Source: Hyphomonadaceae bacterium
Lineage (GTDB): Bacteria; Pseudomonadota; Alphaproteobacteria; Caulobacterales; Aquidulcibacteraceae
Assembly: GCA_016791385.1 (NCBI GenBank)
Contig: JAEUMR010000021.1
Coordinates: 1 to 60,243 of the forward strand
Direction: 5' to 3'
DNA length: 60,243 nt
Shown here: one piece after another, positions 1 through 1,564 of the stretch
Numbering within the stretch: position 1 is the first letter of the stretch
Layout: every line of letters starts with the position of its first letter
The notes under the pieces: generated by a model
The model's database searches: none
What the model was told of the DNA's origin: nothing
Seen by the model: only the letters and a program-made list of their open reading frames with translations
Position numbers and translations under genes: made by a program

Positions 1-286
1 GTTGGGTGGGCGGTTCATTGCCCCCCGGGTTTTCCTTGTTTGGGCGGGCCGTCGGCGGGGCCTCAAAGCTCGGCTGTGCCGCCCCCCCCCCCCCGCGCTC
101 CAATAGGCGCCGCCGCACTTTGTCCCCCAGCGCGCGCACGAAAACGCGCGCCGCATCAAGTCTCTGCGCACCCGTCACAGCGATTCAATCCGCCCCCCCG
201 CAAACCGTGCGAAGATGCCTTGTCTTCTGCAGGGAGGTTGTCGGTACCAACGCCAAACAGCGCAGAGGACGCGGATTGAACGTGAA
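1..286. other. non-coding stretch, no gene recognised
   Basis: I see no credible gene here. Open frames exist on both strands, as expected at this GC content, but they are Arg/Pro/Ser-rich, lack ribosome-binding sites and match no family I know. The DNA has long C and G homopolymer runs, including about 14 C from 81 to 94, which is not coding-like. It lies upstream of the structured-RNA candidate at 287-502. Confidence 0.5.
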
Positions 287-502
287 GGAGCGTGAAAGCG
301 GCGACGCTGGAACGCTCCAGTTTCGAGGAGGATGAAACTCGAAAGCACCGACGGGAAAGTGCGAACGTCGAACGGGTTCGCACTTGTTGGCCCCCCGCCG
401 CACGTCGACCGGGAACGTCGAGCACGGCGCTAAGAGATCGCCGGGCCCCCAGCGTCGCAGGACTGGCCGCACTGCAAAGTGCGCACGAGGGAGGAGACCT
501 CG
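287..502 (+). ncRNA. candidate structured RNA of unknown family
   Basis: Perfect complementary segments cluster here. A 10-bp long-range helix joins 301-310 to 449-458. It encloses three stem-loops: 321-327/338-344 (7 bp), 357-366/376-385 (10 bp, 9-nt loop), and a stacked arm 396-400/425-429 plus 405-409/417-421. Downstream lie 468-473/478-483, closed by a GCAA (GNRA) tetraloop, and 486-490/498-502. The segment 287-293/312-318 (7 bp) would form a pseudoknot with the long helix, or an alternative fold. Several loops are purine-rich on the plus strand, which is why I orient it this way. I could not match it to RNase P, tmRNA, SRP or 6S RNA: the conserved core sequences of RNase P and the tmRNA tag region are not visible. 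Being an RNA gene is inference from these pairings only. Confidence 0.35.
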
Positions 503-717
503 CCAGCCCCCTGTCTTATCAACGTATGGCCACCCGCGATCACACCAACGCCCCAGGCTCGCGCCGGACGCAAAGACAATCCGCGCGAGGGCGCGCTTCG
601 GCACACCCCACGCACTACCTTTCCTGAGCGCTCCGCCGGAGCGCGCCCCCGCGCTCCCGATGGAGCCAAGTGAAACGCAAACCCGGAAGCGCGCAGCGCT
701 GTCCGGCCTGACCCGCT
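503..717. other. non-coding stretch between RNA candidate and SDR gene
   Basis: No convincing reading frame. The one clear element is a perfect 7-bp hairpin, 628-634/638-644 (GCGCTCC paired with GGAGCGC), without a T tract. It could end the upstream transcript or belong to the leader of the dehydrogenase gene. Confidence 0.4.
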
Positions 718-747
718 TTGACAAGCGCCGCCTTCGCGCGCCAAGTC
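718..747 (+). promoter_or_regulatory. putative promoter of the 794 dehydrogenase gene
   Basis: TTGACA at 718-723 is a perfect -35. GCCAAGTC at 740-747 resembles the Caulobacter housekeeping -10 (GCTANAWC, six of eight). The start codon follows about 46 nt later. This is a sequence match only. Confidence 0.3.
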
Positions 748-793
748 AGGCAAAAGCGGCGCGACGATGTTGCCGCAGCGTTAGGAGGAAGCC

Positions 794-1564
794 TTGAAAG
801 ATCTCTTCTCCCTGAAGGGCCGCGTTGCGCTGATCACCGGCGGGTCGCGCGGCATCGGCAAGATGATCGCCGAAGGCTTCCTGCACCAAGGCGCCAAGGT
901 CTACATCGCCGCGCGCAAGGGCTCGGCGCTCGATGAGACCGCCGCTGAGCTCTCCAAGCTCGGCCCGTGCGTCGCCATCAACGCAGACGCCTCCGGCGCT
1001 GACGGCGCCAAGGCGATGGCCGAAGCCTTCCTCAAGCACGAATCCACGCTCGACATTCTGGTCAACAATGCCGGCGCGGCCTGGGGCGCGCCGTTCGATG
1101 AATTTCCCGAAGCCGGTTGGGACAAGGTCGTCGACCTCAACATGAAGACGCCGTTCTTCCTCACCCAAGCGCTGCACGGCGCGCTCAAGGCCGGCGCCGC
1201 GAAAGGCCATCTCGCCAAGGTGATCAACATCGCCTCGATCGACGGCATCTCGGTGAATATGGGCGAGACCTATTCCTACGCCGCCTCGAAAGCGGGCGTC
1301 ATTCACCTGACCAAGCGCATGGCCATGCGCCTGATCAGCGACGGCATCGCCGTCTCCGCTATCGCGCCGGGCGCCTTCGCCTCCGACATGAACCGCATGG
1401 CGCGTGATCACGGCGACATGGTCGCCCAAGCAATCCCGGCCAAGCGCATCGGCACGACTGAAGACATGGCCGGCGCTGCGATCTATCTCGCCTCGCGCGC
1501 GGGCGATTACGTCGTCGGCTCGACGCTGATCGTCGATGGCGGCGTGACCTACATGCGTTCGTAA
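794..1564 (+). CDS. SDR family NAD(P)-dependent oxidoreductase
   Basis: A classical short-chain dehydrogenase/reductase of 256 residues, predicted cytoplasmic. The Rossmann cofactor motif TGGSRGIG is at 15-22, NNAG at 91-94, the catalytic serine near S148 and the YxxxK pair at Y162/K166. The C-terminus ends with the usual ADYVVG-like loop and IVDGG. The start is TTG, supported by a strong AGGAGG ribosome site at 783-788. The substrate cannot be read from sequence; the family includes gluconate dehydrogenases and 3-oxoacyl reductases. It converges on smc with a 6-bp gap, so it is a separate transcription unit. Confidence 0.9.
   Translation: MKDLFSLKGRVALITGGSRGIGKMIAEGFLHQGAKVYIAARKGSALDETAAELSKLGPCVAINADASGADGAKAMAEAFLKHESTLDILVNNAGAAWGAPFDEFPEAGWDKVVDLNMKTPFFLTQALHGALKAGAAKGHLAKVINIASIDGISVNMGETYSYAASKAGVIHLTKRMAMRLISDGIAVSAIAPGAFASDMNRMARDHGDMVAQAIPAKRIGTTEDMAGAAIYLASRAGDYVVGSTLIVDGGVTYMRS

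Follow-up and report, generated by a model that had tools for sequence, protein, structure and literature searches.

Comparative sequence analysis indicates that the window (the whole stretch of 60,243 nucleotides that was analysed) carries one copy of a real family of large structured RNAs that is stand-alone, multicopy and absent from Rfam. The RNA gene is about 440 letters long and paired mutations in related bacteria preserve its fold, so that it probably encodes a real working RNA. The fold is shown by covariation among the aligned copies, and the pseudoknot rests on fewer changes. A first-pass annotation of the same DNA had proposed an unrecognised structured RNA at positions 287-502, in front of an SDR gene. 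The presence of such an RNA was borne out by base-pair covariation, by a homologue in another genus and by the absence of an Rfam match, whereas the proposed extent was too narrow, since conservation extends over positions of about 221 to 658 (about 440 nt, not 215).

The locus and its copies

Both 10-bp helices on which that proposal was built (301-310/449-458 and 357-366/376-385) are exact, and the hairpin capped by GCAA, around 469-482, is directly visible in the window sequence. Of 2000 dinucleotide shuffles, 0.2% contained two perfect helices of at least 10 bp within the 216 nt, and so did 0/197 other pieces of the window of this length; a single perfect helix of at least 10 bp per 216 nt was found in 4% of the shuffles and in 10% of the other pieces. 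The folding energy of the region was ordinary (z -1.0 on the + strand and -2.1 on the - strand) and would not by itself have flagged it.

When the whole window was compared with Rfam 15 at the gathering score, a check that the annotation had proposed, 0 matches were obtained. At a permissive threshold (E<=10), 10 loci with the element gave only 4 weak matches of miRNA type, all of them to GC-rich hairpins beside the core and below the gathering scores, and no family was matched by the element itself in either search. ARAGORN detected 0 tRNA or tmRNA genes in the 5 loci scanned, and no phage or plasmid record matched the window copy. A single pattern match in IMG/VR, considered as a phage copy, was rejected for lack of HMM support. 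Among the matches listed, a literature search on Terricaulis, Hyphomonadaceae or Caulobacterales and structured ncRNA returned no published description of this RNA family.

The own genome (a MAG) contains 10 dispersed copies, the region from about 181 to 707 being one of them; they align over roughly 520-650 bp and end near window position 707. In the 9 other own copies, blastn similarity started at 178-185 in four, at 91-153 in four and at 227 in one, and ended at 705-709 in eight and at 735 in one. The stretch 91-180, upstream of the usual left end, is common to own copies L034 (from 91), L033 (107), L037 (140) and L030 (153); the window contig begins just before this shared stretch, possibly at an assembly break in a repeat.

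DNA similarity was detected in 16 of 61 genomes (own and relatives), all belonging to the same genus, and a gapped core pattern matched 15/30 genomes of the genus, with 0 matches for the reversed control. Among the named GTDB 220 genomes this pattern found 75 stretches, of which 59 had HMM support and came from MAGs labelled Terricaulis, Hyphomonadaceae, Caulobacteraceae or just Alphaproteobacteria/Proteobacteria; the other 16 (Pantoea, Variovorax, Janthinobacterium and others) lacked such support and were rejected as family members and treated as chance. A covariance model of the central arm (R1; window 404-575, built from 28 copies) gave 91 matches in 16/30 genus genomes, from 1 to 16 per genome. 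The sole match in G016 was shortened and weak (R1 E 6e-4; L196 5593-5688, - strand); just downstream of it lies a 205-codon ORF (L196 4825-5442, - strand) that we take, by eye, to resemble ribosomal protein S4.

Outside the genus, one clear R1 copy was found, in a genome of another genus of the same family (G117). No further match beyond the genus was obtained in 398 genomes sampled from the order, the family's 60 being searched separately, and among 385 genomes sampled from the class only the own genome matched, the order and class sets being samples and all three scans having stricter filters that lose weak matches. Within the genus, 14/30 genomes had no R1 match, several of them being 99-100% complete, and this patchy presence indicates that the RNA is dispensable in the genus. 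In total, 81 distinct copies were collected, with 65 full-length copies from 14 genomes. The homologues that the annotation had suggested looking for are present in related genomes, with helices under compensatory change.

Consensus fold and covariation

The consensus fold consists of 67 pairs and includes a pseudoknot that joins the loop of the 5' hairpin (232-237) to the 3' end (653-658). The parts of the element, in window coordinates, are the following:

181..707, + strand: whole repeat unit (delimited by multiple alignment and by blastn comparison of window 1-800 with the own copies)
183..194, + strand: block ATC(A/T)ATCCGACC, conserved upstream of the RNA, which may be a -35 region or an operator (column frequencies, 65 copies)
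211..216, + strand: -10-like hexamer of a putative promoter, gaagat in the window copy; second base A and sixth base T invariant in 65/65 copies
221..658, + strand: structured RNA core (pair counts on the alignment, extents from the alignments), with a predicted 5' end at about 221
221..271, + strand: P1 hairpin, 221-229/263-271; 8 or 9 of 9 pairs in 52/55 non-own copies
232..237, + strand: GGGAGG, a segment of the P1 loop that forms the 5' side of the pseudoknot; partner 653-658
272..278, + strand: 5' strand of the long-range helix P2; partner 577-583; 96.5% paired, double changes at 6/7 pairs
280..284, + strand: 5' strand of P3; partner 401-405; 98.5% paired
287..318, + strand: P4 hairpin with a GNRA tetraloop at 301-304; inner stem 298-300/305-307, outer stem counted as 289-291/314-316
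321..344, + strand: P5, a variable hairpin at the periphery, 321-327/338-344 (from a constrained fold of the window copy)
357..385, + strand: hairpin of the first-pass annotation, peripheral; intact in 3/10 own copies, interrupted in the remaining 7 by an inserted REP-like palindrome
406..412, + strand: 5' strand of P6; partner 564-570; 94.4% paired
420..423, + strand: 5' strand of P7; partner 557-560; 95.6% paired, with the strongest covarying pair
426..429, + strand: 5' strand of P8; partner 549-552; 100% paired, nearly invariant
452..461, + strand: 5' strands of P9 (452-455/522-525) and P10 (458-461/510-513); 98.8% and 89.6% paired
586..651, + strand: P11, 3' hairpin 589-596/641-648, plus 586/651 and 599-600/637-638; 95.5% paired
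653..658, + strand: 3' strand of the pseudoknot; partner 232-237
683..706, + strand: terminal hairpin CCG(G/C)A...T(G/C)CGG, REP-like, possible transcript end (regex)

Pairs were counted on a sequence-only MAFFT alignment with 41 of the 65 full copies, 24 close copies of G014, G019, G000 and G021 being left out. Standard pairs made up 94.7% of 2695 cells, compared to 84.4% after shuffling and 35-53% when the helices were slid. Double changes were seen in 302 cells compared to 93.3 in the shuffled alignments (0/500 shuffles as high), where the cells count sequences and not independent events, and 42/67 pairs showed a double change. The central model arm alone gave 93.3% paired cells versus 84.7%, with 79 double-change cells versus 24.6. 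Double changes were present at 7/9 pairs of P1 and at 6/11 pairs of P11. The pseudoknot is paired in 97.1% of its cells, and also in the G117 copy, and rests on near-invariant pairs plus one compensatory change, found in two related copies (L068 and L125). The weakest helix was P4, whose stems were 79.5% and 87.0% paired; for P5, column-by-column testing of a nearby register showed no conservation.

A null in which the substitutions of each tree branch were redistributed (60 simulations, 65 full-length copies from 14 genomes) left 11 of 147,696 column pairs at E<=0.05. Six of these fall in consensus helices, namely 421-559 and 422-558 in P7, 459-512 in P10, and three in P4 (299-306, 300-305 and 290-315). 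The other five belong to no counted helix: 230-262 lengthens P1, although it is paired in just 65%, and the remaining four, which are short-range or unpaired, are probably alignment shifts. With a second alignment, 5 pairs were significant: the P1 extension again, and 4 that belong to consensus helices.

In the G117 copy, 8/8 helices checked were paired, and relative to the window copy both partners differ in 10 pairs, of which five belong to P1; in this check the strands were picked by eye, P11 was assessed without the window comparison, and P9 and P10 were outside the eight. The R1 model alignment of this same copy marks non-standard pairs in the inner helices. Folded as in the consensus, with the pseudoknot left aside, the window copy has an energy of -190.8, compared to a free minimum of -192.8, a cost of 2 kcal/mol; the free minimum-energy fold contains none of P2, P6, P7 and P8.

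The long helix 301-310/449-458, which in the annotation encloses a three-arm junction, is not the backbone of the structure, as the conserved long-range helices are other ones. It was discarded as a consensus helix because it retains 9 or 10 of its 10 pairs in only 2/10 own copies and 3/55 copies of other genomes, and it competes with the conserved helices 298-300/305-307, 452-455/522-525 and 458-461/510-513. The hairpin 357-366/376-385 is kept (9-10 of 10 pairs) in 3/10 own copies and in 0/55 others.

The insert in this peripheral hairpin of 7/10 own copies (L032-L038) is a REP-like palindrome (GTCATCCCGG...) of varying length, and the insert part alone was also matched elsewhere in the loci of several relatives. 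Several copies of G011 (L077, L124, L136 and L155) have long imperfect repeats of the GGCGAATGGCGAGTGG type inserted in the peripheral P10 arm. The terminal hairpin was found by regex in 45/65 full copies.

Strand, candidate promoter and genomic context

Within the helices, G-U cells outnumbered A-C cells by 370 to 98, and by 249 to 109 when the stems were chosen in a strand-neutral way; in P11 and in the small tetraloop stem A-C was slightly above G-U. The P4 tetraloop is of the GNRA type in 56/65 copies. The -10-like box lies just upstream of the first helix, spaced as for a transcription start at P1, and to our knowledge the -35 region fits no standard sigma consensus. A protein-coding region was rejected because no frame is shared, only 5/65 copies on the + strand and 7/65 on the - strand being open end to end. 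The longest stop-free run on the + strand ranges from 62 to 210 codons across copies, and a 179-codon ORF on the minus strand crosses the region in the window. The G-U excess, the GNRA loop, the -10-like box and the lack of a shared frame point to a + strand RNA with its own predicted promoter.

Upstream of the element, at about 55-156 nt, a hairpin GGGGATAG...CTATCC (or GGGGATTG...CAATCC) was seen in copies of G011, G012, G013, G014, G019 and G020. It repeats, in an operator-like manner, the TCTATCC word of the ATCTATCCGACC block and was found by regex in 14/65 copies.

The SDR gene of the window (assigned by Pfam; TTG start at 794) has the same orientation as the element and lies roughly 90-135 nt downstream of it. 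A specific tie of the element to this gene is contradicted by the copies elsewhere, which have unrelated neighbours. Homology between flanks of the same genome, within about 4 kb, was detected in 3 pairs among 90 loci (tblastx, at least 80 bits and at least 80 aa), and the orientation of the longest flanking ORFs was mixed (19 ++, 19 +-, 13 -+ and 8 --, with 59/90 loci scorable). When 9 testable copies were examined for target-site duplications, the words shared by flanks were in weak excess, averaging 5.7 compared to 4.9 after permutation, with 5/200 permutations as high.

The copies of G014 (15), G000 (10) and G019 (5) form one clade each, so that copies were multiplied or homogenised in these three genomes; several other genomes hold mixed lineages. 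Four genomes (G004, G029, G020 and G024) share a copy locus flanked by genes for an ABC transporter and an amine-oxidoreductase-like protein (Pfam); this locus is too variable across species for the exact ends of the element to be read from empty sites. The same SMC gene has a copy nearby in G000, G013 and G021, and in the latter two genomes a copy is closer to the homologue of smc, the gene that follows the SDR gene in the window. Loci L232 (G000) and L253 (G014) represent the same intergenic region with copies in opposite orientation, which suggests re-insertion or inversion. As the predicted promoter region travels with the copies, these were probably copied as DNA.

Comparison with known systems and alternative explanations

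We consider it likely, judging from the comparative data, that the element is a stand-alone, trans-acting large ncRNA gene, multicopy and copied as DNA with its promoter. The predicted promoter at about 183-216 would start the transcript near 221, and the RNA would fold into the 5' hairpin P1 and then the long-range helix P2, enclosing the short P3 with variable arms and the long conserved arm P6-P10, followed by the 3' hairpin P11, with the 3' end pairing back into the P1 loop as a pseudoknot. Such an RNA would most likely act in trans via its structure, as OLE, ROOL or GOLLD may, and would exert no control on the neighbouring gene, while the copies would spread at the DNA level, the promoter region moving with each. 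It is also possible, though we lean against it, that the family represents a new class of element, an autonomous protein-less RNA gene with a pseudoknot-closed RNA of about 440 nt as its product, multiplying and relocating, together with its promoter, in the chromosomes of this family of Alphaproteobacteria. If true, the copies would be RNA machines that form a mobile or homogenised family, and would not regulate any neighbour.

Few large RNAs with an elaborate, conserved fold are known from bacteria, and ribozymes and scaffolds are among those that are understood. According to one source, the function of OLE, ROOL and GOLLD is poorly understood, RNA-only assembly occurs among the ornate ncRNAs, a pseudoknot is predicted for ROOL, 659 and over 800 nt are quoted for ROOL and GOLLD, and all three have Rfam profiles (PMC12286853). 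The present element resembles OLE, ROOL and GOLLD in being large, stand-alone and highly structured, with a conserved core and variable peripheral arms, and resembles ROOL in its pseudoknot, for which pairing and a single compensatory event were described above; a long conserved multi-helix fold and a pseudoknot with covariation, as expected of an ornate ncRNA, are both present. It is smaller (about 440 nt) than the sizes quoted for ROOL and GOLLD, and unlike all three it has no Rfam match, is chromosomal and interspersed with up to 16 copies, showed no phage or plasmid match for the window copy and had no tRNA in the 5 loci scanned. Known here from its sequences, the family may work like the ornate ncRNAs. 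It stands outside Rfam, with up to 16 copies per genome and a comparative secondary structure, and a single genus offers a natural contrast of 16 carrier versus 14 non-carrier species, so that expression, essentiality and spread are directly testable.

That the helices arose by chance in GC-rich intergenic DNA, or belong to a protein-coding region, would agree with the ordinary folding energy of the + strand and with the minus-strand ORF of the window, yet this is scarcely credible against a covariation that none of the 500 shuffles reached and the lack of a shared open frame. A role as riboswitch or 5' leader acting in cis on the SDR gene, to which the orientation and short distance of that gene correspond, is very improbable and was rejected because the copies have unrelated neighbours, ten of them in the same genome. 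The flanking ORFs are in mixed orientation across the 59 scored loci, the G013 and G021 copies lie nearer the smc homologue, and no constant type of downstream gene was found, given the 3 homologous flank pairs in 90 loci. Also unlikely is a non-autonomous DNA mobile element of the MITE or REP/BIME type, that is, foldable single- or double-stranded DNA recognised by a transposase in trans, with an incidental RNA. Such repeats are likewise non-coding, intergenic and dispersed, and the genome-specific clades, the unrelated flanks, the REP-like terminal hairpin and inserts and the opposite orientation at L232 and L253 all speak for this explanation. However, these repeats differ from the element in its long multi-helix RNA-like fold under compensatory change and its promoter-like box; the excess of G-U over A-C, the GNRA loop and the two invariant bases of the -10-like box favour RNA, covariation through the whole interior would exceed what the ends of an element should need, and some copies occupy the same locus in four genomes. 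Moreover, the Y1 transposase that would be expected alongside REP repeats (Y1_Tnp) does not track the carriers, being present in 9/16 carriers and 7/14 non-carriers, several carriers being incomplete MAGs.

Other structured RNAs are known from mobile elements, namely HEARO/IscB omega RNA and group II introns, and models of HEARO and group II introns exist in Rfam. The element is like them a structured RNA found with dispersed elements, but it has no Rfam match (10 loci, permissive threshold) and no conserved reading frame, and its carriers are not tracked by reverse transcriptase genes: RVT_1 was found in 7/16 carriers and 6/14 non-carriers. Neither the reverse transcriptase nor the Y1 transposase was retained as a driver, since their presence does not track the element. 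An RNA partner of a reverse transcriptase, either retron-like msr-msd or another RT-associated RNA, is for its part quite improbable. RVT_1 was absent from the multicopy genomes G000 (10 copies), G014 (16), G013 (14) and G019 (6), the first three being <90% complete and G019 99% complete, and there is no consistent RT in the genus and no Rfam match, in contrast to the RT gene linked to each copy that a retron would have. A convergent order, as in G117, where adjacency of element and RT was seen, is not known for retrons. What speaks for a partner of this kind is that the G117 copy, the sole clear one beyond the genus, has its end 16 nt away from a convergent gene for a 438-aa RT (RVT_1 by Pfam) with a YADD motif, whose best PADLOC models among the retron/RT models are RT_other and RT_outgroup; the RT and the element lie at L195 5376-6692 (+) and 7211-6709 (-), respectively.
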